Assembly: GCA_017621085.1 (NCBI GenBank)
Contig: JAGATW010000057.1
Coordinates: 1-32,101 of the forward strand
DNA: 32,101 bases
From: Clostridia bacterium
GTDB lineage: Bacteria; Bacillota; Clostridia; Oscillospirales; CAG-272
Reading direction: 5' to 3'
Part shown: positions 67-31,730 of the stretch, in pieces
Layout of the letters: every line of letters starts with the position of its first letter
Position numbering within the stretch: the first letter of the stretch is position 1
Made by a program: the position numbers and the translations under genes
The notes under the pieces: generated by a model
The model's database searches: none
Seen by the model: only the letters and a program-made list of their open reading frames with translations
Told to the model about the DNA's origin: nothing

Positions 67-105
67 CACAGTGGCAAGGCATTCTTGCCACTGTGGTTTT
101 TATTT
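67..105 (+). terminator. Intrinsic terminator of the upstream plus-strand gene
   Basis: A perfect 12-bp stem (67-78 with 84-95) with a 5-base loop is followed by a T-rich run. There is no T tract on the minus-strand side, so it serves mainly the plus-strand gene ending at 60. Confidence 0.85.
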
Positions 106-106
106 T

Positions 107-12578: not shown

Positions 12579-13229
12579 TTATTTTAGCTTTGCAAGCTTA
12601 GATGTGTTTATAATTACTACAAGCTTCATGCTTTTGTCTAAGTGCTCTGTTGGGTCAACATTAGTTTGTAAGCTATCTCCCTTTTTAATTGCTATTACGT
12701 TCATTGCGTATTTTTTTCTAAGGTTTAATTCTATTAATGTTTTGCCTACCCATTCCGGCTTTACATCAATATCTACTAACGATACCTCGTTTGATAGCTC
12801 AATTACATCTACAAAGCCTGAGCTTAATAGATTTTTTGCAAGTCGTCTTCCTGATTCGCTTTCCGGAAAAACAACCTGATCTGCTCCTACTCTGCTTAAT
12901 ATTGCTTCATGCATTTTAGTGGAGCTTTTTGCTATTACTGTTTTAACTCCTACCTCTTTACATAGCATAACTGCCATAACGCTTGCTTCTAAATTATCTG
13001 CCATGGCAATTATTACAGTGTCCATATTTGCAATTCCCAATTGCTTGATTACGTCCATATTAGTTATGTCTGCACACTTGCAATACGGAATGTCCACGCT
13101 GGCTGAATTAACTATATTTTCGTTTATATCAACTGCTAATACATCCGCACCATTATTAACAAGCTCCTTAGCAACGGCTGTGCCATATTTTCCTAAGCCA
13201 AATACCGCATATGAATTATTAATACCCAT
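12579..13229 (-). CDS. ktrA: TrkA-family potassium uptake regulatory subunit KtrA
   Basis: A 216-residue cytoplasmic RCK protein that gates the membrane subunit encoded just upstream. The N-terminal Rossmann domain has GLGKYG at 11-16 and Asp34 at the end of the second strand, which is the usual nucleotide-ribose contact (NAD, ATP or ADP). The region around IIAMADNLEASVMAVMLCKEVGVKTVIAKS-like sequence is typical RCK_N; from about residue 130 an RCK_C domain follows (DVIELSNEVSLVDI ... MNVIAIKKGDSL). Length matches Bacillus KtrA/KtrC (about 220). The ATG follows AAAAGGAG, 11 bases after the ktrB stop, so the two genes are cotranscribed. Confidence 0.92.
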   Translation of the reverse strand: MGINNSYAVFGLGKYGTAVAKELVNNGADVLAVDINENIVNSASVDIPYCKCADITNMDVIKQLGIANMDTVIIAMADNLEASVMAVMLCKEVGVKTVIAKSSTKMHEAILSRVGADQVVFPESESGRRLAKNLLSSGFVDVIELSNEVSLVDIDVKPEWVGKTLIELNLRKKYAMNVIAIKKGDSLQTNVDPTEHLDKSMKLVVIINTSKLAKLK

Positions 13230-13240
13230 AATTACTCCTT

Positions 13241-14599
13241 TTAACCTACACTTATTTCCTCTGTTGGATTTTTTATGCTGTTTATATTCTCTTTTTTAGA
13301 TTGAAACGCTATAGCAAGGGAAATTGGTCCTATTCGTCCAAAATACATCGTTGCAATAATAATAAGCTTTCCCCATACATTTAAAAACGGCGTTATTCCT
13401 TTTGATAGTCCTACGGTTGCTGTGGCACTTACTGTTTCGTACATAATATCAAGAGCTGAGGCATTAACTGCAACTGACAAAAAAATAGTTGACAGTGTCA
13501 CTATTGCAAATGACATACAGGTAACTGCTACTGCCTTTGAGGTAATTTGTCTTGATAAGCTTCTGTTAAATAAGGAAACCTCTGTTTTATTGCGAATGGT
13601 TGAATATGCTGTTGCAAACAATGCTACGATTGTTACTGTTTTAACTCCACCTGCCGTTCCAACAGGAGAGCCTCCTACGAACATCAAAAGTAATGAAACT
13701 ATTGATGAGGCATTGGTCAGATTTTCTTGAGGAATGGTCATAAATCCTGCTGTTCTTGTGGTTATCGATTGAAAAAACGACATTTGAATTTTATCAAATA
13801 CCGAATATTCTTTTATAGTTAATGGATTATTGTACTCAAACGCAAAAATCAAAGTTGCTCCGCCTACAACTAAAACAAATGTTGACACAAGCACGATTTT
13901 ACTGTGAAGGGTCAGCTTGCTGAGGCAGTTGAATTTCATTTTTTTAAATTCCTTGAAAACTCGAATAACATCCCACCAAACTATGTAACCAAGACCACCC
14001 AAAATGATAAGTGAGCTTGTTACAATGTTAATAAGAGGATTTGTTGCATAGTTACATAGGCTATTCTCACCTACTATGTCCATACCTGCATTACAAAAGG
14101 CTGAAACAGAATTGAATATTGCCACCCATACTCCTCTTGCCCCGAGCTCAGGGACAAAAACAAGCATATACAAAAGTGCGCCTATTCCTTCTACGATAAA
14201 TGTGCCTATAATTACTTTTTTAACAAAGGCTGCAAGTCCTGAAAGTGAGTTAATATTAAAGGCATCACCAATTAGCTGACTTTCCTTTAAGCCTAATTTA
14301 TGATGCAGTGCTACCATTACTCCTGCCATTATGGTAATGATTCCAAGCCCGCCAATTTGTATTAGTACTAAAATAACAATCTGTCCAAAAATGCTCCAGG
14401 TTGTGGCTGTTGGGAGTGTGACAAGACCCGTTACACAGGTGGCTGTGGTTGCCGTAAACAGGGCATCAATGTATGAAACACTCTCGCCATTTTTAGCACT
14501 AATAGGAAGTGATAATAATGCACTGCCCACTAATATGGCTATTAAAAAGCTTAGCATAATGATTTGCGTGGTAGATAAGGTAATCTTCCTTTTTTTCAT
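13241..14599 (-). CDS. ktrB: TrkH/KtrB-family potassium uptake membrane subunit
   Basis: A 452-residue integral membrane protein of the superfamily of K+ transporters, importing K+ (in some members with Na+). Four pore-loop repeats are visible, each with a conserved glycine: TCVTGLVT, FCNAGMDI, TRTAGFMT and TATVGLSKG. Between them are pairs of hydrophobic helices, as in KtrB. It is the first gene of the operon with ktrA; TTGGAGAAG precedes the ATG and a consensus promoter lies upstream. The two-gene layout and length point to a Ktr rather than the larger TrkH/TrkA system. Confidence 0.92.
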   Translation of the reverse strand: MKKRKITLSTTQIIMLSFLIAILVGSALLSLPISAKNGESVSYIDALFTATTATCVTGLVTLPTATTWSIFGQIVILVLIQIGGLGIITIMAGVMVALHHKLGLKESQLIGDAFNINSLSGLAAFVKKVIIGTFIVEGIGALLYMLVFVPELGARGVWVAIFNSVSAFCNAGMDIVGENSLCNYATNPLINIVTSSLIILGGLGYIVWWDVIRVFKEFKKMKFNCLSKLTLHSKIVLVSTFVLVVGGATLIFAFEYNNPLTIKEYSVFDKIQMSFFQSITTRTAGFMTIPQENLTNASSIVSLLLMFVGGSPVGTAGGVKTVTIVALFATAYSTIRNKTEVSLFNRSLSRQITSKAVAVTCMSFAIVTLSTIFLSVAVNASALDIMYETVSATATVGLSKGITPFLNVWGKLIIIATMYFGRIGPISLAIAFQSKKENINSIKNPTEEISVG

Positions 14600-15232: not shown

Positions 15233-16918
15233 TTAGTCAGCTGTTGTAGGAAATGCTATATCATTATATGAAACATAATGATAATTATCGCCATCTGCCG
15301 GTATTCCACCCTGCATATATGAATATTCTGTTGCTTCACCATCTGTTACAGATACGTATGCTCCAATTGCAAATTTGGCGTTTTTGTGTTCGTCTGCAAA
15401 GCCAACCACCTTAAGATCAAACGCAACAAACTCGTAATTTGTAATTTCTGCATTAATAACGCCCTCTGCAGCTATTCCATCCTTGCCAAATATATTCTTA
15501 TCGCCAAGCTTGCTTTGCGATACCGCAAACACGCCATATTTTAAGTCCTTACCGGATGCTTCCTCATATTCAATAATAGCCTTGTTATTTACGTTAAAGC
15601 CTATCGCAATTCCACCTGTGCCATTTTCAGATGCTGAGTAGCCGAGACATACAAAGAGGGCAGACGCCTCAAGAACACCGTTTTCACCACATTTAGGACA
15701 AGTAACTATTTTTTCACCATCAGCTGTATAGCTTGTGTATGAAATTGAAACAAGCGTTGCATTTCCATTCAAATAATCATAATCGTGTGATAAAGCTGTT
15801 CCTTCAACTGCTTCTTTCGACATTTCACAACCACAGTAGCAATATGTTACCCTTCCTGCATCAACTCCACAGCTCGCAGGAATGTTAACTTTCCTTTCTG
15901 CAATATGAGGAACAAGCTTATATGCTTCGTTAGGATTTGATTCAGCAGTTGATTCAAGAGCGTTTGCATCGTATGTTGCAAAATATCCTTTTGTCCATCC
16001 TCCGCTTAAAATATCTGTACGAACAACATAGGAAACCTTGTTCTCCTTGCAGAAATAAATCCTATCCTGAGATTTATTTACTCGTGAATATTTAACATCG
16101 TTTATTGTCGCTTGTGGGGTGTTGGAATTTTGATTGTTATTGGAAAGCAAAAATGTGAGTGTTCCGTCGGTTTTGGTTGTGTATTCGCCCCTTACATTTT
16201 TAAAATAAGGTTCATTGTTGTATATGGTTGTATCATTTACATAATCGCCGTTTAACTCGCTAATTGTATTATTGCAAAGATAGATATTAAATCCGCCGAG
16301 GGATTCTTTTTTGCTGTATTTAAGATACACGTGTGTCATTTTTCCAAGGAAAACAAGATTATACACGCCTGAGCTTTGTATGTTGGTGTCGGTGTTGAAA
16401 TATGTAAATGTTTCAGGGAAAACAAGCGTTGTCATTCCTGTGCAATTTTTAAATTGATAAATGCTGGAAAATTCTTGGAAGGCTACGGGGAGCTTGTTAT
16501 CCTTGAATACAAGCTGCTTTGAATTTGAAAAAGCCTCTTCTCCAAGTGTAGTAATTTGCGCCTGTCCGAAATCGATCAGTGTGAGAGAGTCGCAGCTGGA
16601 AAACGCTTGCTTTGGAATAACCTTTATACCGCAATTATCATCAAAGCGCACAGTTGTAATATTACTGTTCTTGAATGTGTATTCTGCCATTTTTGTTACA
16701 TAGTATCTTTCGCCCTCATATTCTATATATTCGGGTATTACTATGTCTGTGTTTGAAAAAGTATTGCCTTCGTGCTTTTTGATTGTAGCTGTCTTACCAT
16801 CCTCAATTAATGTGTAGGATAGCTCGTTTACTGTTACATCAACAGCAAATACACTTATTGCAAGCAATAATGCAAGAACTGCTACCATTGAAAGAATTAA
16901 TAAAATTTTTTTCTTTAT
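15233..16918 (-). CDS. Secreted BspA-like surface protein, apparent ATA start
   Basis: A 561-residue secreted protein if started at the ATA codon at 16918. AAGGAG at 16925-16930 is six bases from that ATA, and the peptide then begins (M)KKKILLILSMVAVLALLLA, a classic signal peptide matching MKKKIFLMLSM of the paralogue at 30007. The first ATG in frame (16888) has no ribosome site and would drop the basic n-region; no ATG, GTG or TTG lies between the upstream stop and it. After the signal come LRR_5-like segments (VTKMAEYTFKNSNITTV; ALTLIDFGQAQI-like), a poorly conserved middle, a Cys-rich stretch (CYCGCEM, CPKCGENG), and the shared C-terminal module from residue 421. A mutated start (pseudogene) is the alternative, but the frame is otherwise intact. 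Confidence 0.75.
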   Translation of the reverse strand: MKKKILLILSMVAVLALLLAISVFAVDVTVNELSYTLIEDGKTATIKKHEGNTFSNTDIVIPEYIEYEGERYYVTKMAEYTFKNSNITTVRFDDNCGIKVIPKQAFSSCDSLTLIDFGQAQITTLGEEAFSNSKQLVFKDNKLPVAFQEFSSIYQFKNCTGMTTLVFPETFTYFNTDTNIQSSGVYNLVFLGKMTHVYLKYSKKESLGGFNIYLCNNTISELNGDYVNDTTIYNNEPYFKNVRGEYTTKTDGTLTFLLSNNNQNSNTPQATINDVKYSRVNKSQDRIYFCKENKVSYVVRTDILSGGWTKGYFATYDANALESTAESNPNEAYKLVPHIAERKVNIPASCGVDAGRVTYCYCGCEMSKEAVEGTALSHDYDYLNGNATLVSISYTSYTADGEKIVTCPKCGENGVLEASALFVCLGYSASENGTGGIAIGFNVNNKAIIEYEEASGKDLKYGVFAVSQSKLGDKNIFGKDGIAAEGVINAEITNYEFVAFDLKVVGFADEHKNAKFAIGAYVSVTDGEATEYSYMQGGIPADGDNYHYVSYNDIAFPTTAD

Positions 16919-16984
16919 AAAAATCTCCTTTAAATAATTTTTTAGTGTTTTAATATGTTAATGTTTTGCATTATAAACAGTGAA

Positions 16985-18796
16985 TCATATTAATGGTAAT
17001 TCCGTCATTCTAAGCTTTGCACATCCATAAGGATACAATGCAATCTTTTCGGCTTTACCAAGAGCTGTTCGTGATTCAGGCGTTTTTGCACAAACATTTT
17101 CATAACCTGTTTCCAAACCCCACGATATTTTCTTCATCTCAGCCATAACCACCATAGGAGGCTCTTGTGAGCTGAAGGGGATATCAGATATTTGGCGTTT
17201 TTCTAATACAAATAGTGGGGACGAAAGTGCATAATTCCAGTCGGATTTTGGAATATATTCATAGTCGCAATATGGATATTTTCTTTCTACACCATTCTTT
17301 TCATATTCATGTATAATTTTTTCATATTTAATAGGAAGGGAGAAGACAATTGAACCACAACGCACACTTTTTAGATTGTGTGGACGGTCAAATATCGTAG
17401 GCTCAACTTCAAACTCAATGACAATATTCGAATGCTTATTAGATGGAATGTCAAAATCGAGTTCTTGACAAAAAACATGTTCTTTTCCGTTTATACGAAG
17501 CTTTTTTGCAAAGGATGGAATTCTAATCTTTAATTGCACATCCTTCTCTGCATCTACTGAATATTCAAGCTTGTTTTCAAATGGATATTGAGTTTTTAGT
17601 GTAATATGTATTCCATCTGCCTTAAGCGTTGAGGGAAGTGGAATTGCTGAAAATATAGTATTATTGCAGTACATAAAAGAAGATAGTGTAAATTTAGGCC
17701 AAGCTTGATTGAAATTTGCGGTACAACAACCAAAGAATGGCTCTAAGCCAAACAAATGTGCATCATTTCCATTAACTCCAAAAATAGGTTTATTCGGAAA
17801 TTCTTGACAAGCAATTTGGTTGCTCATTTGATCATATTGATGTGTCCACATATCGTCGCTTATAGCTGCGGGAAGTGCATTGAAAGCAAGTAATTCTAAG
17901 CGTTCTGCCCACTTCGCATCTCCTGTGTAAGCAAGAAGGTGTTCATACGAATACATTTGCTCCACAACTGCACATAGTTCAGTCCCCTGTATTGGGCTAA
18001 GTCCAGAAAGGCATTCATCACCCGTAAAAAGACCTACAGGAGTGCCATTGTACTCTTTTAGTATTGTGACCAATCGCTCTGCCATGTCGGTATAAGGTTC
18101 ATTCAAGATATCACAACTTATTGCTTCGGATTTTAACATCATAACAAGATTAACAATGTGTGTATCAAAAGTGCATTTGTTAAGTGGTCTTTTCCAAAGT
18201 TCAGTTAGCTGTCGATAATCTGTACCCTGTGATTTTAAAATTTTAGCAAGATCAATTATCCAATCTTCTTTGTACCTTTCCCACAAGAAATTAAGAGCAA
18301 TAAAGCTTTCAAACCAGCGATACCGTCCCCAATAAAAAAGCTTGATTTTTTCTTTCAAAAGCAATTCGTAATAATTCTTCATAGCCTTGTATATGACCAA
18401 AGGCACTCGCTCATCAGACGAACACTCATAATAAACGACCAAAACCTTTGATATAAGCTGTAGTGCCCAAGTGTCATAAGCTGATATTTCATCATCATTA
18501 CAGGGGCATATCCACCCACTTGGTTTTTGATGTTCAATTATAGCATTAACATACCTTTTAGCTCTTGAAATTAAATCATCATTTTCTAAAAGATAAGCAA
18601 GAGGTATAAAACCATCTAACCAATAAGGAACTCTTTCCCAGCCCTCAGCTTTTCCACCTATCCACGCACTATCCTTAACATCCTTCCAAACCTTATCAAG
18701 GTTTCCGCTTAATCCCTTGGCTTGAATTTCAAGTTGACGTTTGAGCCATCCTTTGGGCTTTATTTCTTGTGCTGTATAAAAATTCCATGTGTGCAT
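16985..18796 (-). CDS. GH127/DUF1680-like beta-L-arabinofuranosidase
   Basis: A 603-residue cytoplasmic glycosidase (no signal peptide). The N-terminal alpha-barrel has VPYWLDGFIPLAYLLEND at 57-73, the hallmark of DUF1680. Glu273 and Cys275 (GTELCAV) and the Cys pair 357-358 (FFGCCTAN) match the E-x-C and CC zinc ligands known in GH127, where one Cys of the pair is the nucleophile; Glu261 (TGDECLSG) is a possible acid/base. From about 380 a beta-sandwich region follows (LKIRIPSFAKKLRINGKE). The family releases L-arabinofuranose from plant or glycoprotein glycans, but related GH families share the fold, so the substrate is not certain. GGAGG precedes the ATG. It is divergent from an AraC regulator, which probably controls it. 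Confidence 0.82.
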   Translation of the reverse strand: MHTWNFYTAQEIKPKGWLKRQLEIQAKGLSGNLDKVWKDVKDSAWIGGKAEGWERVPYWLDGFIPLAYLLENDDLISRAKRYVNAIIEHQKPSGWICPCNDDEISAYDTWALQLISKVLVVYYECSSDERVPLVIYKAMKNYYELLLKEKIKLFYWGRYRWFESFIALNFLWERYKEDWIIDLAKILKSQGTDYRQLTELWKRPLNKCTFDTHIVNLVMMLKSEAISCDILNEPYTDMAERLVTILKEYNGTPVGLFTGDECLSGLSPIQGTELCAVVEQMYSYEHLLAYTGDAKWAERLELLAFNALPAAISDDMWTHQYDQMSNQIACQEFPNKPIFGVNGNDAHLFGLEPFFGCCTANFNQAWPKFTLSSFMYCNNTIFSAIPLPSTLKADGIHITLKTQYPFENKLEYSVDAEKDVQLKIRIPSFAKKLRINGKEHVFCQELDFDIPSNKHSNIVIEFEVEPTIFDRPHNLKSVRCGSIVFSLPIKYEKIIHEYEKNGVERKYPYCDYEYIPKSDWNYALSSPLFVLEKRQISDIPFSSQEPPMVVMAEMKKISWGLETGYENVCAKTPESRTALGKAEKIALYPYGCAKLRMTELPLI

Positions 18797-19722: not shown

Positions 19723-19754
19723 AAAAGCAAGGCTGAAAATTCAGCCTTGCTTTT
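19723..19754. terminator. Bidirectional terminator between AraC gene and the TIR operon
   Basis: A perfect 14-bp stem (19723-19736 with 19741-19754) and 4-base loop with T runs on both strands. It ends the AraC gene and the minus-strand operon whose last stop is at 19769. Confidence 0.88.
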
Positions 19755-19768
19755 TATGAGTAATATTT

Positions 19769-20392
19769 TTAATTTAATCCAAAGCCTCTTCTGTTAAGCA
19801 CCATTTTATAACAGTCCACAGGGGGAAGTAAATGCCCACCATAATCCTTAAAGGCTTCACCTACTATTTTAAATCCAAACTTTTCATATAGCTTTATGGC
19901 TGCTATGTTGTCGGATAAAACAGTGAGTTCAACAATCTCATTGGTAGATATATCAAGAAGGCTTGCTAACAAAAAAGATGCAACACCCTTTCTTTGATAA
20001 TCGCTTCTAACAGACACATTACACATGGAATTTCCTAATTTACAATAATTATAGGTCTTATCCATATATGCTGATACTGAGGAAAAGGATTCCGGTGGTT
20101 GTAGCTCTGCTTTTTCAAAATCCTCGAGCAAAGCATTGGGATCCCAGTGAAAGTCATTAGCATGGTAAAGAGCTACTCCTATAACCTGTTCCTTTGCTCT
20201 TACTATGTAAATGGCTTTTTTATAAAATACACATTTAGGATTTTCAAAGGATCGGTATAACACTCTATGTGCATTTTCTATATTTCCAAACAAATCCTTA
20301 TATATATATGGATCGGTTTGATATATTAGTTCTATCACCTCTCTATAATCACTTCGGTTAGAGAGAATTTCAAATGTATATTCATTATTCAT
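19769..20392 (-). CDS. GNAT-family N-acetyltransferase, last gene of the TIR operon
   Basis: A 207-residue acetyltransferase. Motif A is VRSDYQRKGVASFLL (the Q/R-x-x-G-x-A acetyl-CoA loop) and the C-terminal part has VLSDNIAAIKLYEKFGF, the usual GNAT motif B. The N-terminal region is longer than in minimal GNATs. The substrate is unknown: small molecule, protein or tRNA are all possible. Its ATG overlaps the stop of the 754-residue gene by eight bases and has no ribosome site of its own, so translation must be coupled to that gene. This ties it to the operon rather than to the AraC gene beyond the terminator. Confidence 0.85.
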   Translation of the reverse strand: MNNEYTFEILSNRSDYREVIELIYQTDPYIYKDLFGNIENAHRVLYRSFENPKCVFYKKAIYIVRAKEQVIGVALYHANDFHWDPNALLEDFEKAELQPPESFSSVSAYMDKTYNYCKLGNSMCNVSVRSDYQRKGVASFLLASLLDISTNEIVELTVLSDNIAAIKLYEKFGFKIVGEAFKDYGGHLLPPVDCYKMVLNRRGFGLN

Positions 20393-22649
20393 ATGTATCT
20401 ATTATTATAAAATTGCTATATGCAATAACCGTTGGCTCTATCCAAAGCTTTATATCGTTACTGCAACACATTCTGTTGGGTAAACAATAATATTTACTAT
20501 TTATGGAATATCTAAATTCAGAAATGACTTCGATATCCATATCTCTGTTATATCCCGGAGAAAATACAGAAAAATGAGAAATCTTGTATCCGTCACGAGT
20601 TTCGTGCGAATATTCATATGTTCCTACATAAGGATATATTCCATCCAGTCCCTTCGCGTCATCCTTGCCGTTTTGAAGATATTTATACACCTCAAGAATA
20701 GCATCTATTCTTCCATCTATTCTTTCTTCAGTAACATCATCGAATTTACAAAGGTATTCGAGACGTTGTATTTCTGAATAATCTAAAAGCTGATATCTGC
20801 CAAGCATTTCGCGTAAAACCTTATTCTTAATTTTGCCCTCCGGAGTATTCGCAAACATACACTCGTCATTAAGCTCTTTTATTTCTACCAAAAGCTTATC
20901 TATATCCTTCGAGGTAAGATCGGCTAAGCGTTTATTTTGCGCCTTAACCTCTTTGCGTAGCTCTTCGTTTGCCCGTCGTTGAAAATCATCAACCTGTCTT
21001 GATGTAAACACATTTTCGTTAGTTTGTTTCTTGTATCTGTATTTTTCATTTGCATATCTGAAAAAACCACAATAGAAAATATAGAGAAACTTAAGCGTTG
21101 TGAATACAATTCCAAGTATGCGCTCCTTTTTTCTTTGTAAAGGGAAATCAGGGTTGTTTTTCAAAAGCTCAAGCATTTTCATATGTGAACCTATATTCAA
21201 AGGATACTTGTTACGTAGTTTCCTTTCAGGCATATCATCGGCAAAAACAATATCAGACAAATATGTTATCAAATGAAGAGCTCTTAATTCAGCGGTTATT
21301 GCGACACGCTGTTCTTCGATAACTGTATTTACAATTGCGTTATTATAATTGTTTTCCCATACATATTCGCAACACCATCTGTTAAATGCAGATTGTATCT
21401 CTTCATTAGTTTCGTTCTCAAGCTTTGTTATATCGAAAATATCTGAACCAAATCTTGATTGTAAGCTATTCAAAAGTTTACGATAAATCTCATTTGAGCG
21501 TGAAAACAGGAATTGCAAAATATTAGTTGCACTTTCCTTAACCAACAAAATAACAATTATTGTATCCCAAGAATGACCCATAAATAAATCATTATACTTT
21601 GAGGAATACTGTACTGTTAGTTGTCTTTTATTTTCCTCGGTTAAGCAATCCGAAATTGACATTGCAAGTTGTTTTATATATCTGTAATCTATGGCGTATA
21701 GGTCACGAATATATGAGTTGCTATCTGACTCTTCCCCTATGTCATTTAGACGAAGCTCTCTTTTAATCGCACGCCTTCCTCTTCTTGATGATAGTAAAAG
21801 TTCTCCGTCTTTTGCAACATAATCGTCCCCTTCAGATGAACAAAGACGCAAGTCGCAATCCTCTATACCAAGTGAAGAATAATTTAAATACAAGCAATCA
21901 CTTGTTTTTGTGTTGTCAATAACGTCTTGAAGATAATAATACTTATCATATAGCTTAACAAGTGTAAAACAAGTATCATATGTTTCCTTGCCACGAGGGC
22001 TTCTTATTTCTATGCTTACTTTTTTGAGTTCGTTGAACTCGTATTTTTCTCCGTCCTCGCAAACAAACAGACTTCCATAGTTATCACCGGCTATGTCAAC
22101 ATCTTTGAGTGATATATTTCTGATATATGGAAATAAATTTATAAGTTCCAATAGCTCATCATATTTTGATGTTATATCCTCTCTCATATCAATAGCTCTT
22201 GATGATGTACGTGCTATCTCAGCACATCTTGCGAAGTACGCAAAACGGTTGTTGTTATCACGATTTAGATACGCATCCATACCCATATCCTTTGATATTA
22301 TGCCATTGTAGAAAATATCCAGTTGTGCATCTATAATTGTCGGCTCAATTGTAACAAAGCGAAGCGGTCTTTTTCTATATAGCTCACTAAAGGTTTTGGT
22401 AATTCGCATATAAGAATTGAATCTTTCAGCATCTGTTGGATTCATATTAGAGTTATTTGCTTTCCAATCACGATATTTTGCATAAATAAGTGCAAATGTT
22501 AAATTCAAAATTCTTGAATAACATTCATATATTTGTTTGTTAGTAGTCAAAAAGCTTGAGGTTCCAAACTCTCCATCGAAAAGCAAGTCCTTCACTGTTT
22601 TGTCCGGAATATACCATTCAATTTGACTAATACACTCTTCTCTTGTCAT
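20385..22649 (-). CDS. 754-residue unknown protein, fourth gene of the TIR operon
   Basis: I do not recognise any named domain. The protein looks soluble and mostly helical from about 320 on. Residues 175-300 look beta-rich (GSLFVCEDGEKYEF, VSIEIRSPRG, CFTLVKLYDKYYYL) and end in a basic cluster SSRRGRRAIKRELR. A hydrophobic stretch at about 511-530 (ILGIVFTTLKFLYIFYCGFF) might be a membrane helix or a buried core helix. A charged helix near 548-600 (VDDFQRRANEELRKEVKAQ) may be a coiled coil. GAGGGAT precedes the ATG, 11 bases after the ATPase stop. By position it is a core part of the system, but its role cannot be read from sequence. Confidence 0.7.
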   Translation of the reverse strand: MTREECISQIEWYIPDKTVKDLLFDGEFGTSSFLTTNKQIYECYSRILNLTFALIYAKYRDWKANNSNMNPTDAERFNSYMRITKTFSELYRKRPLRFVTIEPTIIDAQLDIFYNGIISKDMGMDAYLNRDNNNRFAYFARCAEIARTSSRAIDMREDITSKYDELLELINLFPYIRNISLKDVDIAGDNYGSLFVCEDGEKYEFNELKKVSIEIRSPRGKETYDTCFTLVKLYDKYYYLQDVIDNTKTSDCLYLNYSSLGIEDCDLRLCSSEGDDYVAKDGELLLSSRRGRRAIKRELRLNDIGEESDSNSYIRDLYAIDYRYIKQLAMSISDCLTEENKRQLTVQYSSKYNDLFMGHSWDTIIVILLVKESATNILQFLFSRSNEIYRKLLNSLQSRFGSDIFDITKLENETNEEIQSAFNRWCCEYVWENNYNNAIVNTVIEEQRVAITAELRALHLITYLSDIVFADDMPERKLRNKYPLNIGSHMKMLELLKNNPDFPLQRKKERILGIVFTTLKFLYIFYCGFFRYANEKYRYKKQTNENVFTSRQVDDFQRRANEELRKEVKAQNKRLADLTSKDIDKLLVEIKELNDECMFANTPEGKIKNKVLREMLGRYQLLDYSEIQRLEYLCKFDDVTEERIDGRIDAILEVYKYLQNGKDDAKGLDGIYPYVGTYEYSHETRDGYKISHFSVFSPGYNRDMDIEVISEFRYSINSKYYCLPNRMCCSNDIKLWIEPTVIAYSNFIIIDTYE

Positions 22650-22660
22650 TTTTATCCCTC

Positions 22661-23581
22661 TTATTCAGATGCAAGGCAATCAACTATTAGCTTGTATGCT
22701 ACAATTGCCTTTTTTTCGTCATCAGAAAGTTTTTCCGGTGCGATTTTAAATAAAATATCTTCTTGAATTTTAAATCTCTTTACTTCGTTTACACCAAAGA
22801 AATCCTTGTCCATACCAACCATTGTTAAATCAACCTTGTTGTTGTTGATTTCTATTTCACCAAAGGCATCTACTATAAGCTTTTTAATACTGTCATAGCT
22901 TACTGACATACCATCGATTTTTATATCGTCTATTGGAACAGCATTAGGGATTATCACAAACTTCTTTTCACTGAAATTCCTTAATTTGTTGTTAAGGAAC
23001 TCCTCAGTTCCTATACGGAACTGGTATGTTATTCTCATACAGGTTGCCACAGTATCAGAAAGCTCAAGTGCCCATTGTGCTGTTGCTTGATTTCCTGCCG
23101 GTGTATCAAATATAACTCCTGCAAAATCAAACTGCTCACAAGCTCTTATAATGTCCTTGAAACGGTTTTCCTCAACTCCGCCAATAGCAAAGTTACTATT
23201 AGATTCTCTATTAAGTCCCTCATCACGCTTTGTTGGAACGAAAAGAATTGCTGAATTACTGTCGTTATCGAGACCAAAGCATTTTCCTACCGGTATGCAA
23301 TGCTGGAAAATAGCATGATGTGCAATATCAATTCTCGAAGGATGATTCAATACCTTTGAGAAATTGGATGCTAAAGCATCCTGTAATGAGTATGACTCAA
23401 TATCTGCTCCATTCTTTTTAAGTAGAAATGTTAATCCTGCACTATCAAGGTCCAAGTCGAATACCAAAATTGGTCTTTTGGGGGTTGCATTTAATTTTTT
23501 TGCAAGATAAGGAATGGTATTATATGCAATTGAGCTTCTACCTGCACCACCCTTGTATGAAAAGTAGGATATTTTCTTCAT
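22661..23581 (-). CDS. ParA/MinD-fold ATPase with KGGAGR P-loop
   Basis: A 306-residue SIMIBI-class NTPase. The deviant Walker A reads YKGGAGRSS: the signature Lys is at 10, but Arg15 replaces the second Lys of the usual KGGxGK(S/T). Switch region VFDLDLDSAGL (Asp42, Asp44) and Walker B VIFDTPAG (Asp159) are intact, so nucleotide binding is likely; turnover may differ from ParA. Such KGGxGR ATPases occur next to TIR and other effector genes in predicted bacterial conflict systems, as I recall. They are not plasmid partition genes here, since no ParB or parS is near. The ATG follows AAGGAG, 13 bases after the coiled-coil gene. Confidence 0.85.
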   Translation of the reverse strand: MKKISYFSYKGGAGRSSIAYNTIPYLAKKLNATPKRPILVFDLDLDSAGLTFLLKKNGADIESYSLQDALASNFSKVLNHPSRIDIAHHAIFQHCIPVGKCFGLDNDSNSAILFVPTKRDEGLNRESNSNFAIGGVEENRFKDIIRACEQFDFAGVIFDTPAGNQATAQWALELSDTVATCMRITYQFRIGTEEFLNNKLRNFSEKKFVIIPNAVPIDDIKIDGMSVSYDSIKKLIVDAFGEIEINNNKVDLTMVGMDKDFFGVNEVKRFKIQEDILFKIAPEKLSDDEKKAIVAYKLIVDCLASE

Positions 23582-23594
23582 TTAAATTTACTCC

Positions 23595-25745
23595 TTAAGA
23601 ATTCTGTGCTTTTTTCTTGCGTATTTCGTCACTAAAGAAATCAGAAATAGTTTCTACGATGAGTAATTCTGCATCATCAACGTTTTCATTTGTAATATCT
23701 TTAGAGTTGAAAATTTCAAGTGATGTGTTAAATAGTTCCGGGAAACTGCTAAGTACTGCTCTTCTAAATAGCATTCCATACTCTTCACTCTGAGGAAGCT
23801 TTGTTCCGCTTTCGCAAATAATTCCCGTTAACATTGCCTTAAGCTTTTGGTCAAGAGCCTTGCTAACCATATCGTTAACTACGCTTTCAACCGCTTCTTC
23901 AAGCTTCGACTTTTGTGCCATAAGCATTTCGCTTTGTTCCTCAAGCTCCCTTGCATGCTGCTCTTCTAACGCTATAAGCTCCCTTTTGACATTGTCTATC
24001 TTTTCCGTATAGTCATCCTTGAGCTTTTTCTTTTCTTCCTCTATCATGACTATCTTCTTCTCAGCCTCATCCATATATTGCTTTTGACTCATTGCATATG
24101 GTTGCTCATATGTTTCATAGTAGTCATAAAATGCACGTAATACGAATACATAGTTGAAGTTGTTTATAAGCTGATATCCCTCGGAATCCCAAAGCCACTC
24201 ATTAGGCATTTTCTTTTTCAAAATTTCGTCCTTGTACGTTCTCATCTCATACTGTGGATACAAAATGATGTACTTGGAAATTGTTGAATAAGTCTTAATG
24301 ATAAGTGGAGTTAACTGAAGAGCAATGACTCTTTGTTTGCGTATAGCTCTAACCTGCTTAAATAGAGATTTTTCTGCTTCTTGATCATCCGTTGGAATAG
24401 CTGAAGGGATTTTTAACTCATATTGGTCAAACGCCTCACTTTTACCAAGTCGAATAAGCTTTTTATTGAAACGTTGAATGTTAGGTACAGTGTACTGTAC
24501 TCTATCATAAAATTCGTCTCTCATATCATTTTCTACATAGTCAATATCGACACCTGATGCCATCAAAATATTAATCGCGAACAGAACATTAAACATCGCA
24601 TCGTTGGAACTACTGTTTTCGATATCATCCATAGTTACTATTTTGAAGTTATAGTTGAAAAAGTCCTTAGCAATATCAATTCCTGAGAATTGCATATCAA
24701 CATAGTGACCTGCATCAAGCATTGTTTTATTGAATTTTCTATAGGATGCAAAGCTTCTCTTCAAAAATTCGAAATTTCTTAAAAGCTCTTTGTTGTTTTG
24801 TTTAATTGTTATGTTGTATTCTTCGGGATTTGCATTCACAACCATATCAATTAGCTGTTTAGTTGTAATGCCTTCTTCCTCAGACACATTCTCATTTTGT
24901 ACTGAGGCAATGTTTGCACGTAACTGACGCACTAATGAAATAGCCTCTTTAAAAGCTTCATAGAAAGTAAGGTATGCTTCAGACACTAAGTATGTGTAGT
25001 ATAGTGAAATGCCTGTTTTTGAATGCTTTTCTGTTGGAACATAGGCAAAGCTCCAACCCTTATATTTCAAATTTTCACCATCAATATCCGGTGTCGGCTC
25101 TTCGCTTCCACTAAGGTAATAATCTATTCCTTCTTCGCCGTTTACACGCAACGCAGAATCACTTATAAAGTTCATACACTTAACAATCAAGTTTTCAATA
25201 AATGAAATTTCTGCAAGTGAATGCTCAGTTGATAGCATATCCTCGTTTTTTTCCACAAATCTTGAAGAAATATTTATGGTGTTTGTTTCGTTATCATAGT
25301 CTTTAGAAAGAAGCTTACGTATTTCTACAAATACACGCAATGTTATTGCTGCAGTTTCTACGTATTTTGTTATTAAGCCCTCTTCCTTTACATATGGAGT
25401 TGCATCAAAGCAAAGCTCTTCTTCGTCTGCGTGCAAGCGACATAAAATGTCATCAAGCGTTGCATTGATTTTGTCCATTAGTCCCTCATATGAGGAAAGA
25501 TCTACATTAAAGTTTGCATATTCAAGGAGTGTAAGTAATCCGTAGCACTGAGATATTGTTCCAACATCTGTATTGTTTTCACTTAACACAAAACCCGATT
25601 CATTTTTGTTCAACTCCAAATTCAAGAAACTTCCTATTAATTTTTCGCCTATAAATTTTCTACTCGCATAGGTTTTAAAAAGTCCCTCGGATGCTGCATC
25701 AGATAGTGGGTCTATAAAAGTATTTTTTTTCTTTCTCTTTGCCAT
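23595..25745 (-). CDS. 716-residue unknown with C-terminal coiled coil
   Basis: No named domain is recognised. The N-terminus is very basic (MAKRKKKN). Residues about 55-290 carry helical segments with patterns such as VGTISQCYGLLTLLEY and LKYKGWSFAYV, loosely recalling alpha/alpha-toroid repeats; this is only a guess. Residues about 558-625 are strongly heptad-like (KKIVMIEEEKKKLKD through ELEEQSEMLMAQKSK), so oligomerisation is likely. The last 80 residues are helical and acidic with a basic end. It sits between the TIR gene (20 bases away) and the ATPase, GAGGAG precedes the ATG, and its size suggests a scaffold or sensor. A Cys-free core and lack of signal peptide place it in the cytoplasm. 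Confidence 0.7.
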   Translation of the reverse strand: MAKRKKKNTFIDPLSDAASEGLFKTYASRKFIGEKLIGSFLNLELNKNESGFVLSENNTDVGTISQCYGLLTLLEYANFNVDLSSYEGLMDKINATLDDILCRLHADEEELCFDATPYVKEEGLITKYVETAAITLRVFVEIRKLLSKDYDNETNTINISSRFVEKNEDMLSTEHSLAEISFIENLIVKCMNFISDSALRVNGEEGIDYYLSGSEEPTPDIDGENLKYKGWSFAYVPTEKHSKTGISLYYTYLVSEAYLTFYEAFKEAISLVRQLRANIASVQNENVSEEEGITTKQLIDMVVNANPEEYNITIKQNNKELLRNFEFLKRSFASYRKFNKTMLDAGHYVDMQFSGIDIAKDFFNYNFKIVTMDDIENSSSNDAMFNVLFAINILMASGVDIDYVENDMRDEFYDRVQYTVPNIQRFNKKLIRLGKSEAFDQYELKIPSAIPTDDQEAEKSLFKQVRAIRKQRVIALQLTPLIIKTYSTISKYIILYPQYEMRTYKDEILKKKMPNEWLWDSEGYQLINNFNYVFVLRAFYDYYETYEQPYAMSQKQYMDEAEKKIVMIEEEKKKLKDDYTEKIDNVKRELIALEEQHARELEEQSEMLMAQKSKLEEAVESVVNDMVSKALDQKLKAMLTGIICESGTKLPQSEEYGMLFRRAVLSSFPELFNTSLEIFNSKDITNENVDDAELLIVETISDFFSDEIRKKKAQNS

Positions 25746-25765
25746 TGTTTTTTCTCCTCATAAAA

Positions 25766-26962
25766 TCATTTATTAAATTTAATCTTTATCATAGGTAATA
25801 TGCCGGCTATAGAATCGATAAATTCGTAATCAATATCAGCTTTATCGTTCCATACACCACAGTAGGTTTTCCTGTGAGGTCCATTACAATTTGCAAGCCA
25901 TGCCATATCCACCTGTTGCCCCACGAGCTCGGTAGCTTCGAGCTTAGGTAATTTTGCACCATAGTGCTCGACAATATCAACGCTCATCAAATCTACATCA
26001 CATATCATATCAAGCTCTTCTTCAGAAAATGCCTCTTTCTTAAATCTGCTTAGCCATCCATTGATTGAGTCCTTAGTACCAACACATATGTCCAAAACAT
26101 ATTTACTGACGAGTAGGGCTTCTTTGCCATCAGTATCCAAAAGCTTCCATTCAATAGGAGCGAAATCGTATCGATTCTTGTTTTTTAATAAATACTTTAC
26201 TCCATCACCTGTTTCAAATATACTGTTAACACTTTCGGTAGTCTTTCCTGTACACTTTTGTGGATATAAGCCGAGCTTAACTTCTTTAATCCCGTTTTGT
26301 CCTTTGGCACCTCCAAAGGAGTTTTGAAACTCCTCTAATGCACTCTTGCTATCGGTGATAGCATATGGACTCCATTTTCTAATTGTATCGGCTATTTGTT
26401 TTATATAGTCGTCATTTCTCAATATGTATAATTTGTCTTTATTGAAAGAATCTATCACTGTTTTAATTCGTTTTTCCGGTAATACCTCTTTTAAACGAGC
26501 ATCGCTTAAATCCTTACATTTGACAAAAGCCTGTCGGACTATGGAATACACAGACTTGTCTTCAGAATTGAGGACACATAATGCTCGCATATTGGGTTTG
26601 CCTATTTTTACTCTTTCGAATATTTCAATTTCCCGTTCAACAGCATCTCGCCCTGTCATTTCGTCATTCGATATTGTTTCGTTGTTCAGCTCATCGGACC
26701 TAACCAAGCAATTCACATCAAAAAAAAATACTATACCACAACACTTAGGGTCAATCAAGCGCTCTTCAACTATTTTATACCAAATGTCACCACCAGTCAG
26801 CTCTTTATCGTACCAAAAATTCACTCCCTCGTCATATAGCAAGTTTAAATCAGGATAAACCTTACTACTATTAGCATGAGCGTAGGAAACAAGCACATAC
26901 TCAGCATTTGGTAAAACGTCCGGTCTTTCGACATATATTTTGGGTATATCCATTTTTGACAT
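25766..26962 (-). CDS. TIR-domain protein with DUF6273-like C-terminal domain
   Basis: A 398-residue protein that leads the operon. The TIR fold spans about 21-130: strand EYVLVSYAHANSS (the FVSYxHxD box), GVNFWYDKEL with the BB-loop (TGGDIW), and GIVFFFDVN. Glu111 in VEREIEIF aligns with the catalytic Glu of NAD-cleaving TIRs (C-x-x-E-I/L box). Residues about 225-398 resemble DUF6273: GLYPQ, PIEWKLLD, ALLVSKYVLD, AFSEEE and a WLANCNG segment near the end. The frame begins at TTG 26986, but ATG 26962 is preferred: AGAGAG lies upstream and the TTG lies only about 15 bases from the -10 box. TIRs can hydrolyse NAD or make cyclic ADP-ribose signals; whether this one does is inference. A scaffold role is also possible. 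Confidence 0.85.
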   Translation of the reverse strand: MSKMDIPKIYVERPDVLPNAEYVLVSYAHANSSKVYPDLNLLYDEGVNFWYDKELTGGDIWYKIVEERLIDPKCCGIVFFFDVNCLVRSDELNNETISNDEMTGRDAVEREIEIFERVKIGKPNMRALCVLNSEDKSVYSIVRQAFVKCKDLSDARLKEVLPEKRIKTVIDSFNKDKLYILRNDDYIKQIADTIRKWSPYAITDSKSALEEFQNSFGGAKGQNGIKEVKLGLYPQKCTGKTTESVNSIFETGDGVKYLLKNKNRYDFAPIEWKLLDTDGKEALLVSKYVLDICVGTKDSINGWLSRFKKEAFSEEELDMICDVDLMSVDIVEHYGAKLPKLEATELVGQQVDMAWLANCNGPHRKTYCGVWNDKADIDYEFIDSIAGILPMIKIKFNK

Positions 26963-27001
26963 ATTAAAACATCTCTCTTTGCACAATATTTAAACAATTT
27001 A

Positions 27002-27030
27002 ATTATAACATATAGTTTAAAAAAATACAA
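27002..27030 (-). promoter_or_regulatory. Promoter of the TIR operon
   Basis: On the minus strand, TTGTAT (27025-27030), a 17-bp spacer containing a run of T, and a consensus TATAAT (27002-27007), about 40 bases before the TIR ATG. It implies one transcript of about 7.2 kb down to the terminator at 19723-19754. Confidence 0.7.
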
Positions 27031-27242: not shown

Positions 27243-28586
27243 TCATATATGCTCTAATGTTTTCTTTGCCATTTCGGAGATTTTTACCTTATCGTATCCG
27301 AAAAGCGTTGTTTGAAGTGTGTCATTAAATGGCTCACTCCATTTTTTGTCAATTCCGTCAATTCCGTTTGTAATACCTAAAATCGAGCCGACTGTTGCAC
27401 CGTTGCAATCAGTATCAAAGCCTGCTTGAACTGCCATACAAATTGACTTAGAATAGTCACCTTCTCCGTAAAGAAGGCTGGCGACAACTATCATTGCGTT
27501 TGAAATGGTATGACACCAATCAAAGGAGTTATGGTCGTTCCATTCCTCGTAAATTTTATTAAAGCATTCCTCACAGCTAACACCGGACTTATACCAGTCT
27601 AAAACTGCGTTTAATCTTTCATAAAGGCGTGAGGTATATGGAATTTCAGCAAGACCACCTCTAATAATGTCCTCCATATTATCAGTTGAGAACGCACAGG
27701 CAATCATAGCGCTTGCCCACATTTCGCCATAAATTCCGTTTTTAACATGAGAAATTGAAGCATCGTTAAATGCCATTTTTGCAGCTGCTTCCGGCTTTTG
27801 TGGGTTGATGTATCCAAAATAGTCGCCACGGATTTGTGCGCCAATCCACTCTCTGAATACATTTTTATATGTAGCAGAATGTGGTGGTACAAAGCGATTT
27901 GTAAAGTTGATAAATGCACGTCTTTCAGCAGTACAATATGATTCCTTAGGCTGTAATGCTTGCCAAGCGTGGGCTACATGCCATGGTGCAAAATCTCTAC
28001 CATAGCGCTTTACAATTTCATATCCCATTACCATATAGTTAGTATCATCATCATATGGTGCAAATCCACTTATTTTGTCAATAAATGGATTTTTCTTTAT
28101 CCAAGCAATGTGACCCATATCGTTTGGAATATCTGTAACCTTAATATATCTATTTAGTGGAAAATTGTCAGAGGACTTAAGGATTTTCCAAATATCCTCC
28201 TTCCAAAGGCATTCAATCGGTTTACCAAGCATACAAGCGCAAATTCTGCCAAGCCACGCACCTTGTATTTTCTTTTCAAGAGCTTTTTTGGATAGGCGAG
28301 TCTTTTTTATTTGATATTTCTTTCTTAGCTTCTTAATTTCCTCAAGGCTTGATGGCTCGTTATACTTAAAGTCCTCTCTCATTTTTGCTTCGCAAACCAT
28401 ATTGAAAAGTGTGTCGCAAATTGCTTCCTTGTGCGCACTTCTCTTCATTTTTGATACTGCCTCAAAAACATCCTTTAAGCTTTCTACATCGAGTCCCTCG
28501 TCCATTGATTGACGATATTCATGCATAATATCATCTGAATAAAATTCCCACCATGCCGGGCTTTCATAATCAATAGTTGGTTTCAT
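27243..28586 (-). CDS. ADP-ribosylglycohydrolase-family protein
   Basis: A 447-residue protein of the DraG/ARH fold, which uses two Mg2+ ions to remove ADP-ribose from proteins or other acceptors. The first metal site is DDDTNY at 179-184 and the second GFDTDCNGAT at 389-398, which matches the family's D-T-D-x-N/A motif. KIQGAWLGRICACMLGKP at 106-123 is the typical start of the domain. About 100 residues precede the catalytic domain (AWWEFYSDDI ... SAHKEAICDTLFNMVCEAKM) and form a helical extension. The ATG at 28586 is chosen over the open frame to 28616 because AAGGGAG lies upstream. The target is unknown. Proximity to the TIR operon may be coincidental or linked through ADP-ribose chemistry. 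Confidence 0.9.
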   Translation of the reverse strand: MKPTIDYESPAWWEFYSDDIMHEYRQSMDEGLDVESLKDVFEAVSKMKRSAHKEAICDTLFNMVCEAKMREDFKYNEPSSLEEIKKLRKKYQIKKTRLSKKALEKKIQGAWLGRICACMLGKPIECLWKEDIWKILKSSDNFPLNRYIKVTDIPNDMGHIAWIKKNPFIDKISGFAPYDDDTNYMVMGYEIVKRYGRDFAPWHVAHAWQALQPKESYCTAERRAFINFTNRFVPPHSATYKNVFREWIGAQIRGDYFGYINPQKPEAAAKMAFNDASISHVKNGIYGEMWASAMIACAFSTDNMEDIIRGGLAEIPYTSRLYERLNAVLDWYKSGVSCEECFNKIYEEWNDHNSFDWCHTISNAMIVVASLLYGEGDYSKSICMAVQAGFDTDCNGATVGSILGITNGIDGIDKKWSEPFNDTLQTTLFGYDKVKISEMAKKTLEHI

Positions 28587-28673
28587 ATTTTTCTCCCTTC
28601 GGCGACCTTGTGTCACATTTGTGTTTTTTTAATGAATTTACAATTTTGCGTAGCAAAACCATAACTCATACAA

Positions 28674-30006: not shown

Positions 30007-31653
30007 TCACTGTACCACACCTTCATCGATTGAAGGAGCGCCTACAATATCGTTATATGAAACGAAATAATATTGTTCATTTTCGTCAGGTGTACCGAAT
30101 TGGAGATAAGAATATTCAACCTTATCGCTATCTGTAGTAGCTGCATATGCACCCATTGCAAGCTTTACATCCTTCTGTGTGCCGGTAAAGCCAACTATTT
30201 TAAGCTCAAATGCTGTAAACTCGTGATTTTTAATTTCTGCATTGATAACACCCTCTGCCGTCGTGCCATCCTCACTGAATACATCATTATTACCAAGTTT
30301 ATCTTGCGATACCACAAATACACCGTATTTTATGGCTTTGCCTGTTGCTTTTTCATATTCTGCAATAGCTTTATTGTTTACAGTAAAGCCTACTGCAATT
30401 CCATCAACACCTGTCTTAGATGCTGAGTAGCCAAGGCAGGTAAAGAGAGGTGGTATTTCCTCTGTTGTTTTATGTGTACAGCCCTCGTTTGTGCAACCAA
30501 CTGTTTTTATTCCTGTCACATCATAGGAAGCATATGTAATTGTTGTCGCTATGTTATGAGTAGGATTTGCTTTAGGAATGTTTACTGCGCCACAGTAAGT
30601 GCAATCGGTTACGCAAGGATTATCTGTATCGGCAAGTAAGCCGTTACAAATAGAACAAGTGTTGTCTGCGCCATAGAAAATGGTATTTGTCTTATATGTT
30701 GTTCCCGGAACATAATTTTCAAATGGCTGTGCATCATATGCTGACAAAGAGCCAAACTGACCCTTGAAGAAGTCAACGTTATCGCCAGAATAAATAATTA
30801 CGTTAGGTCTTGTTGAATACAAAAAGTTTGCGTTAATCTTGTGTGTTTCGTCAATTGCAGGCATAATCAAAACCTTGATTTTGCTCTGGTGCGCAAGTGT
30901 GTCTTGACCCACACTGTTTACATTGTGTGGAAAAACATATGTTTCAACAGGGCAATAAAGGAAAACGTTGTTTCCAATAGATGTTAGCGTGCTTGGAAAT
31001 TTAATTGAGGTTAACGCATAACAAACACCGAATCCCCATGGGCCAACCTCTGTTATTTCTGTGTTTGATAAGTCTGCGGTTGTGAGTTTCTCGCATTGTC
31101 TGAAGCAGTTTTCACCAATTCTTTTTAGTGTTGTTGGATACTCAACGGTTACAAGATTTTTACAAAGCCAAAAGCAATGATCACCGTATTCTTGAATTTT
31201 TGCATTTTTTGCCTCTACACTTACAAGGCTTGTGCAATTATAAAATTGTGCATTGTAAAATGAAATTGGGGATGCTGCGTCTGTGTTCTGAATTTTTACA
31301 GTTTCAAGCGTTGTTATATTTCTGAATGCGTGTTCACCAACTACTGAAACATTAGCGCCGATTACAAGATGCTTAATCTTGCCGTTTACTTCACCGTTTA
31401 CCTGTCCAAAGGCGTTATTTGCAATTTCGGTTACCTTGTAAGTAACTCCGTCAACCTCGATTGTTGCAGGAATTACCACTGTTTCAAGCGTGCAGCTTGA
31501 ACGGTTTTCTGTGCTTACAATCGCGTATGCATTTTCACCTGTGCCGTTTAAAGTATAGTATATGCCATCCTTTTCAACTGCGGAAGCCGAAATAGCAAAT
31601 ACGCACACGAGCAAGATAGCCATTGAAAGCATCAAAAAGATTTTCTTTTTCAT
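30007..31653 (-). CDS. BspA-like LRR surface protein with shared C-terminal module
   Basis: A 548-residue secreted protein. The start ATG at 31653 follows AAAGGA and gives a signal peptide MKKKIFLMLSM ... ISASAVEKD. The open frame extends to 31725 but that part is the leader terminator. LRR_5-type repeats span about 55-290 (HAFRNITTLETVKI, NCFRQCEKLTTADL, NVFLYCPVETYVFP), followed by Cys pairs (CSICNGL, CTYCGAV, CTNEGC) similar to the repeats in the protein at 3122. The last 145 residues (from LFTCLGYSAS) are the C-terminal module shared with 5195 and 15233. The function is probably surface binding, by analogy with BspA. No sortase motif was seen. The gene sits under its own promoter and a structured leader, downstream of a paralogue that continues off the window. 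Confidence 0.88.
   Translation of the reverse strand: MKKKIFLMLSMAILLVCVFAISASAVEKDGIYYTLNGTGENAYAIVSTENRSSCTLETVVIPATIEVDGVTYKVTEIANNAFGQVNGEVNGKIKHLVIGANVSVVGEHAFRNITTLETVKIQNTDAASPISFYNAQFYNCTSLVSVEAKNAKIQEYGDHCFWLCKNLVTVEYPTTLKRIGENCFRQCEKLTTADLSNTEITEVGPWGFGVCYALTSIKFPSTLTSIGNNVFLYCPVETYVFPHNVNSVGQDTLAHQSKIKVLIMPAIDETHKINANFLYSTRPNVIIYSGDNVDFFKGQFGSLSAYDAQPFENYVPGTTYKTNTIFYGADNTCSICNGLLADTDNPCVTDCTYCGAVNIPKANPTHNIATTITYASYDVTGIKTVGCTNEGCTHKTTEEIPPLFTCLGYSASKTGVDGIAVGFTVNNKAIAEYEKATGKAIKYGVFVVSQDKLGNNDVFSEDGTTAEGVINAEIKNHEFTAFELKIVGFTGTQKDVKLAMGAYAATTDSDKVEYSYLQFGTPDENEQYYFVSYNDIVGAPSIDEGVVQ
30041..30119. repeat. 79-bp exact repeat, first copy
   Basis: Identical, base for base, to 32023-32101; both copies encode the end of the shared C-terminal module of the two tandem surface proteins. 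The identity runs to the window edge, so the true length is unknown. Confidence 0.95.
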
Positions 31654-31681
31654 AATTTTTCCTTTCATAATTTGTTTTACT

Positions 31682-31730
31682 AAAAAAAGCCGTTTAACAA
31701 TAGGGTGCAGAAAGCCCTTTATCAAATGGC
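31682..31730 (-). terminator. Leader terminator upstream of the LRR gene (attenuator candidate)
   Basis: On the minus strand a long stem (arms at 31715-31730 and 31689-31704, with one mismatch, two G-U pairs and a bulge) is followed directly by seven T (31682-31688). It lies only about 20 bases before the ribosome site of the gene at 30007-31653 and far downstream of that gene's promoter. A full terminator in this place would stop transcription before the coding region unless something prevents it. Confidence 0.6.

Follow-up and report, generated by a model that had tools for sequence, protein, structure and literature searches.

A five-gene operon of Clostridia joining a TIR protein, a KGGAGR ATPase and a slot for putative amine enzymes: a candidate conflict module

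Five adjacent genes on the minus strand of a Clostridia contig form one unit, and not a chance neighbourhood. The contig (JAGATW010000057.1 of assembly GCA_017621085.1) is one of 128 in a draft genome that is 65% complete, and was analysed over its whole length of 32,101 nucleotides, hereafter the window. In the direction of reading, the genes encode a TIR protein, a large protein of no known family (A), a ParA/MinD-type ATPase with a KGGAGR Walker A motif, a second large protein of no known family (B) and a GNAT acetyltransferase. The ATPase led to 17 more loci with relatives of this gene set, from 16 other genomes, giving 18 loci in 17 genomes with the window included. The explanation that we favour, at about even confidence, is that the five genes are one module that moves as a unit and is a TIR-based conflict (immune) system, in which A, the ATPase and B would make up a switch, joined by an arm acting on amines. 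An immune function as such is plausible.

A scan of genome contigs with the window ATPase led to a single locus, L043, from an uncultured Clostridia bacterium, in which all five genes recur in unchanged order (38% identity for TIR, 43% for A, 58% for the ATPase, 46% for B and 56% for GNAT). Profiles of the ATPase matched in two of 245 genomes sampled from the window's order (the window's included), three of 41 in the family of the L043 genome (itself included), 11 of 219 in the order sample of that genome (two of them already known), four of 30 in the window's genus (the window's included, with two copies in one genome) and one of 139 in a phylum sample, which was the window's own. The surroundings were retrieved for all profile matches past thresholds of 1e-10 or 1e-20. 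The window ATPase as query matched in three of 391 genomes of the class, the two other matches being 28% identical over about 90 residues and not counted as real relatives.

A is the immediate neighbour of the ATPase at all 18 loci (in two pieces in L072), and B or a form of it adjoins the ATPase in all 17 loci that are readable at this point, L095 being cut by the contig end. B is full length in 14 of these and a short form of 230-239 amino acids (aa) in L092 and L094. In L072 it is part of an 873-aa protein, of which the C-terminal piece, taken by itself, matches the B profile (2e-15) and the N-terminal part matches it only marginally, with a TIR domain in the middle (TIR_2, 4e-17). TIR is present in 17 of the 18 loci. 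In 13 it lies upstream of A (at 282 bases in L068, if the first start is used), in L092 and L094 it also precedes A, with an agmatine-deiminase-type gene between the two, in L071 it comes after B, and in L072 it is part of the fusion. The genes are closely packed, with 78 of 80 gaps or overlaps falling within -30 to 50 bases (median 9.5, accessory genes and gene pieces counted), and A, B and TIR stay together while sequence identity to the window's proteins falls to about 15-20%. A first-pass annotation of the window, made from its letters alone, had proposed that the five genes work together, which is supported by these counts and by the TIR-B fusion. The ATPase gene of L093 (2364-3251, minus strand), from the same genus as the window, is interrupted by an internal stop, which may mean that the system is decaying there, or may be an error of the draft.

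The same architectures bear on a narrower explanation, that A, the ATPase and B alone are the system, and that TIR, GNAT and SpeD-like proteins are exchangeable passengers on its promoter. It would account for L070, which has no TIR, for the varying place of TIR (L071, L072) and for the exchange of the gene after B. We nevertheless consider it very unlikely, given the retention of TIR in all loci but one, the fusion of TIR with the C-terminal domain of B, and the presence after B of a SpeD-like, OKR-decarboxylase or GNAT family gene at every one of the 15 readable loci.

The trees of A, the ATPase and B agree over 13 loci, with Mantel correlations of 0.91 for A and ATPase, 0.93 for A and B, and 0.98 for ATPase and B, values as high being reached in none of 5000 permutations. 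The window ATPase shares 58% identity with that of L043, compared with 33-38% with the copies of its own genus in L092, L094 and L095 (the broken L093 was left out). Since the closest relative is thus in L043 and the flanks of the window and L043 differ, horizontal transfer between genomes is likely, as judged from these sequence comparisons, and the distribution is patchy even within the window's genus (four of 30 genomes). Upstream of the operon in L092 lies a gene for a type IV secretion coupling-protein-like ATPase (16614-17921, minus strand; TrwB_AAD_bind, 3.6e-40), which hints at a conjugative element.

Protein A (23595..25745, minus strand, 716 aa) is predicted to be helical with a C-terminal coiled coil at about residues 527-645, and protein B (20385..22649, minus strand, 754 aa) to have a helical middle, followed by a conserved C-terminal region (YYCLPN...WIEP). 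For the window's A and B, nothing credible was found in Pfam, NCBIfam, PADLOC or PHROGs. Among 13 members of each family, the best match of B in NCBIfam had an E-value of 0.017 and the best of A in PADLOC one of 0.064, in both cases for a single member only, and profile searches of the PDB with 13 rows each gave no credible match. The A of L050 and L051 is homologous to that of the window and L043 (hhalign probability 92, E 6e-7), and the corresponding relationship for B is weaker (probability 77, E 2e-5). Folding both proteins and comparing the folds, as had been proposed earlier, was not informative: AlphaFold2 models from two alignment rows had pLDDT values of 38.0 for A and 42.7 for B, too poor to use, and a fold search of the PDB with the low-confidence B model gave nothing below E 0.33.

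The first-pass annotation would have been contradicted by A and B occurring mostly apart from TIR and ATPase neighbours, and this is not seen among the 18 loci. Searched alone, A was found in one of 196 genomes of the window's family, the window itself, and B matched in three of 391 genomes of the class, the window and two genomes with three matches; the latter lie on genes that look PilT/PilC-like by eye and were rejected as chance. Neither single-protein search thus gave a free-standing A or B in the genomes covered, and elsewhere such copies would escape, because the loci were found through the ATPase.

The ATPase (22661..23581, minus strand, 306 aa) keeps the signature Lys10 and has Arg15 in place of the P-loop Lys. 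This combination is found in 18 of 18 ATPases, in which Walker A reads KGG[AS]GR, or KGGACR in two (L050 and L051), and Asp42, Asp44 and Asp159 are invariant across 14 aligned sequences. The roles of these residues are those assigned in work on ParA and MinD. The best remote matches of the ATPase profile in the PDB are MinD and ParF/ParA (E 0.01-0.06), and in PHROGs the window ATPase matches a ParA-like partition protein (1.5e-5), in agreement with its earlier description as a ParA-fold KGGAGR ATPase. It matches two PADLOC PDC-M28B models weakly (3.5e-7 and 9e-6) at the Walker A end only, the alignments spanning ATPase residues 2-58 and 2-72 of profiles with 438 and 327 positions.

The best NCBIfam model of the window ATPase is AAA_KGGVGR (NF047398), the members of which share the altered Walker A (KGGxGR, Arg for Lys) and the ParA/MinD fold family, but it scores 53.9 bits (55.2 by DNA search) against a required 90. 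When NF047398 was searched over 291 genomes, 289 matched, nearly all at the level of ordinary ParA/MinD, and two exceeded the cut-off. These two loci, L039 and L040, were rejected as relatives, being a different subfamily: their KGGVGR ATPases are larger and have a partner of about 190 aa (L039 442-3454, L040 7006-9717, plus strand), with none of A, B or SpeD there. By eye, the neighbours are HerA/SIR2-like in L039 and type I restriction genes in L040, and the ATPase and its partner may be a two-gene unit of their own within a defence neighbourhood.

The likeness to ParA and MinD, with the predicted helical nature and long coiled coil of A (in a low-confidence model), could instead point to a positioning or assembly machine, in which the ATPase would bring a large A-B assembly to the membrane or the nucleoid, with TIR and the enzyme encoded after B as cargo or accessories. 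We regard this as distinctly unlikely: because Arg replaces the P-loop Lys in all 18 ATPases, ordinary hydrolysis cycles are doubtful, and a machine of this type leaves the keeping of TIR in 17 of 18 loci as a point against it.

The TIR protein (25766..26962, minus strand, about 398 aa from ATG) has an N-terminal TIR domain and a C-terminal part of no named family. It may start at TTG 26986 (25766-26986, 406 aa) or at ATG 26962, which has a fitting ribosome site by eye and is probably the true start. The domain is weak in Pfam (E 0.16) for the window protein and clear in relatives (4e-17 for L072 and 2e-15 for L050), with which the alignment agrees, and the initial identification as TIR is backed by both. 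The column that corresponds to the catalytic Glu of known TIR structures (E119 in the 406-aa numbering) holds Glu in all 17 aligned TIRs and also in two extra TIR-methyltransferases. PADLOC gives no match for the window's TIR protein. The C-termini of the TIR proteins diverge; that of L050 carries leucine-rich repeats, as does, judged by eye, that of L051. The two extra proteins are TIR domains fused to a class I methyltransferase beside two related operons (L069 5022-6425 and L068 4788-6101, both on the minus strand), and in L094 the SpeD-like gene has downstream of it a gene that combines an SPFH/Band-7 domain with a TIR domain (12791-13987, plus strand). Two window genes (5195-7105 and 30007-31725) were rejected as TIR genes, their matches being false ones caused by leucine-rich repeats in an early TIR profile, and the final profile was built from TIR domains only. 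With a third gene at 15233-16888, they encode BspA-type leucine-rich-repeat proteins on the minus strand, the middle one recognised by Pfam and the others by eye.

The position after B can be read in 15 loci, the sequences of L071, L093 and L095 stopping short of it, and in all 15 it is accounted for by an enzyme of the SpeD-like, OKR-decarboxylase or GNAT family. A tandem SpeD-like protein is found in 10 loci (L046, L050, L051, L064-L067, L070, L092 and L094) and a GNAT in four (the window, L043, L068 and L069). In L072, the second gene after B, beyond a 160-aa gene, encodes a homologue of the PLP-dependent Orn/Lys/Arg decarboxylases (OKR_DC_1, 1e-69). The GNAT of the window (19769..20392, minus strand, 207 aa; Pfam 7.5e-12), the only one of the five proteins with a clear-cut Pfam family, occupies the slot of the SpeD-like protein in most relatives, and the first-pass annotation was right in calling it a GNAT and too narrow in treating the position as GNAT only. 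Against the PDB, the GNAT profile has one solved acetyltransferase at E 1e-8 (PA1377). Three of the 10 SpeD-like proteins were scanned and carry the AdoMet_dc domain of Pfam (1.6e-24 in L092, 1.9e-23 in L046 and 4.9e-21 in L050), the others being assigned by profile; the profile matches AdoMetDC in the PDB (3e-8), and the C-terminal repeat, unlike most of the N-terminal ones, keeps the pyruvoyl-forming cleavage Ser, before His, in 10 of 10. In L070, L092 and L094, A is immediately preceded by an agmatine-deiminase-type gene (PAD_porph; TIGR03380, 1.1e-91, 4.2e-95 and 4.3e-91, respectively). Arginine and ornithine decarboxylases have arisen repeatedly among SpeD homologues (PMC10407285), in keeping with the agmatine-deiminase-type gene and the PLP decarboxylase of these loci. 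By inference, the GNAT may share its type of amine substrate with the decarboxylases.

Regularity of this kind could also be expected of a physiological amine or stress module, in which the core senses the state of the cell (polyamine, arginine or envelope signals), the enzymes tune the amine pool, and TIR, under regulation, binds NAD or serves as a scaffold. Besides the slot enzyme in every readable locus and the agmatine-deiminase-type gene in three, the surroundings, which look housekeeping where they were read, and the lack of a credible defence-database match for A are in its favour. Patchiness within one genus and horizontal movement are better suited to conflict genes, and divergent TIR C-termini (leucine-rich repeats in L050 and L051) and extra TIR genes (L068, L069 and L094) are habits of such genes, so that we hold this alternative to be a serious one, if on the unlikely side.

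Several observations weigh against an immune module with an amine arm. The flanks of L043 are smc, ftsY, ffh, rimM and trmD, and those of L050 are ABC-transporter and murG-like genes (names given by eye); where the flanks were read by eye (L043, L046, L050 and L051), the other neighbours likewise resemble housekeeping or transport genes, which speaks against the argument from defence islands. The searches for relatives gave no tblastn-confirmed relative on viral contigs, a strict KGGAGR DNA pattern scan of viral contigs gave no match, and there was no relative in the plasmid collections searched and, with the window ATPase as query, none in phage records. PADLOC has no credible match for A (13 members) or for the window's B, and L070 is without TIR. 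Congruent trees are not proof of interaction, because linked genes share their history. Regarding the amine arm, the window GNAT scores best in NCBIfam with the protein acetyltransferase model RimI (39.5 bits, cut-off 86.4), and the polyamine acetyltransferase model SpmdActasePaiA scores only 20.5 bits (cut-off 250). The N-terminal SpeD-like repeat has no cleavage Ser in eight of 10 proteins, the three of 10 that were tested (L046, L066 and L092) match TIGR03330 below its cut-off, and the agmatine-deiminase-type proteins score 307.6 (L070), 318.7 (L092) and 305.6 bits (L094) with TIGR03380, below its cut-off of 381.8. A single branch of the ATPase tree (98/97) separates the GNAT loci from the rest, and one exchange between SpeD-like protein and GNAT may account for this.

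On flanks judged by eye, defence-type neighbours are limited to a Cas9-like reading frame in L072 and the extra TIR genes of L068, L069 and L094. The former (75-794, plus strand) resembles the N-terminal part of Cas9 by eye and overlaps the decarboxylase gene next to the TIR-B fusion at that gene's end. The defence role proposed in the first-pass annotation is not shown, in view of the housekeeping look of the flanks that were read, the PADLOC results for A and B and the lack of viral, phage or plasmid copies in the collections searched. The check that it suggested, whether the genes stay adjacent in other genomes, came out positive in the 18 loci, without a clear defence island.

Under the favoured explanation of a TIR-based conflict system, A, the KGGxGR ATPase and B are the constant core, and would form a complex acting as a nucleotide-loaded switch. 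A trigger, perhaps a phage, would release the switch, and the released TIR enzyme, whose activity is suggested by the Glu column, would split NAD+, either depleting it or making a signal. A second arm would alter a cellular amine through the SpeD-like or PLP decarboxylase, with the agmatine-deiminase-type enzyme in three loci, or through the GNAT; the substrate would most likely be arginine, agmatine or polyamines. The joint change of the NAD and amine pools may then stop growth and starve the invader. Sensor and scaffold roles for the two large proteins, as first suggested, are guesses. The literature permits both arms, as bacterial TIR NADases act in phage defence as NAD-depleting effectors or signal makers (PMC12847820) and phage replication needs spermidine (PMC9992855).

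A more specific coupling of the two arms is conceivable, in which the TIR has its own amine supply: an amine from the operon's decarboxylase or GNAT would be joined to ADP-ribose (ADPR) by NAD+ base exchange into a new amine-ADPR messenger, timed by the A-ATPase-B switch and read by RyR/TrkA-like neighbours. TrkA/RyR-like proteins with N-terminal membrane-type segments (by eye) are encoded beside L043, L069 and L092, with a RyR match of 1.3e-9 in the neighbour gene of L069 and of 0.0067 in that of L092. Indirect support comes from the slot enzymes (15 of 15) and from reports that TIRs make His-ADPR (PMC12847820) and that one Thoeris TIR performs base exchange with histamine, not histidine (PMC11204291). 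The exchange bases named there are heterocyclic, which agmatine and putrescine are not, and we regard this messenger as a long shot.

Among known systems, Thoeris shares with the operon a TIR protein with the catalytic Glu, a small operon and, as the sequence would allow, use of NAD+, as well as membrane-type proteins beside some loci (L043, L069 and L092). It differs in ThsA, the SIR2-SLOG, TM-macro or macro domain of which is not found in the five window proteins by Pfam and PADLOC; the operon has a ParA-type ATPase, two large proteins of no known family and a GNAT or decarboxylase instead. Some vWA-MoxR-VMAP ternary conflict systems have MinD/ParA-like domains, predicted by the authors to be inactive (eLife 2020, PMC7159879), but there this part is listed among the effector domains, whereas it belongs to the constant core here, and the window proteins have no vWA or MoxR match in Pfam. 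Tandem SpeD fusions and pyruvoyl arginine/ornithine decarboxylases (JBC 2023, PMC10407285) share two SpeD repeats per protein and the link to agmatine deiminase, but here the repeats sit beside TIR and an ATPase; a word-start search of the main text of that paper gave no mention of TIR.

In the window, the five reading frames are spaced by 20, 13 and 11 bases and one 8-base overlap, which reproduces the layout in the first-pass annotation, and its single promoter and terminator are upheld. The likely promoter (TTGTAT-17-TATAAT, 27002..27030, minus strand), read from the sequence, has a perfect -10 box, and is missing from the consensus-scan list because its -35 box matches at only 3 of 6 positions. 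The intrinsic terminator hairpin (19723..19754, minus strand) was not picked up by a pattern scan, and is seen in the folding energy, which for 81 nt is -23.1 kcal/mol (z -7.0), a value equalled by none of 200 shuffles. Directly upstream of the operon lies an ADP-ribosylglycohydrolase gene (27243-28616, minus strand; PF03747, 4e-45), which is probably unrelated to TIR, since relatives occur in 20 of 20 searched genomes of the window's genus and an inverted repeat at about 27230-27185 (by eye) stands between it and the operon. As the neighbours of this gene differ in four contigs from the genus, no empty site could be defined. In L050 and L051, which belong to the leucine-rich-repeat TIR branch, the operon is extended by radical SAM (variant_rSAM, related to the MSMEG_0568 family) and PEP-synthase-like genes on the plus strand (L050 13362-16538; L051 13535-16719, the latter by profile).

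Two of the three constant proteins match no library family credibly (Pfam, NCBIfam, PADLOC, PHROGs), yet stay with TIR. The gene set is not described in the open-access titles and abstract starts that were found, bioRxiv preprints not being covered as a collection. The novelty lies in the gene content, the function being a proposed one. If the immune system is real, its architecture would be new and, as far as open-access listings show, it would be the first tie of a TIR enzyme to a dedicated amine metabolism. The operon makes it testable whether polyamines or arginine-derived amines may serve bacteria as a weapon or messenger of defence.

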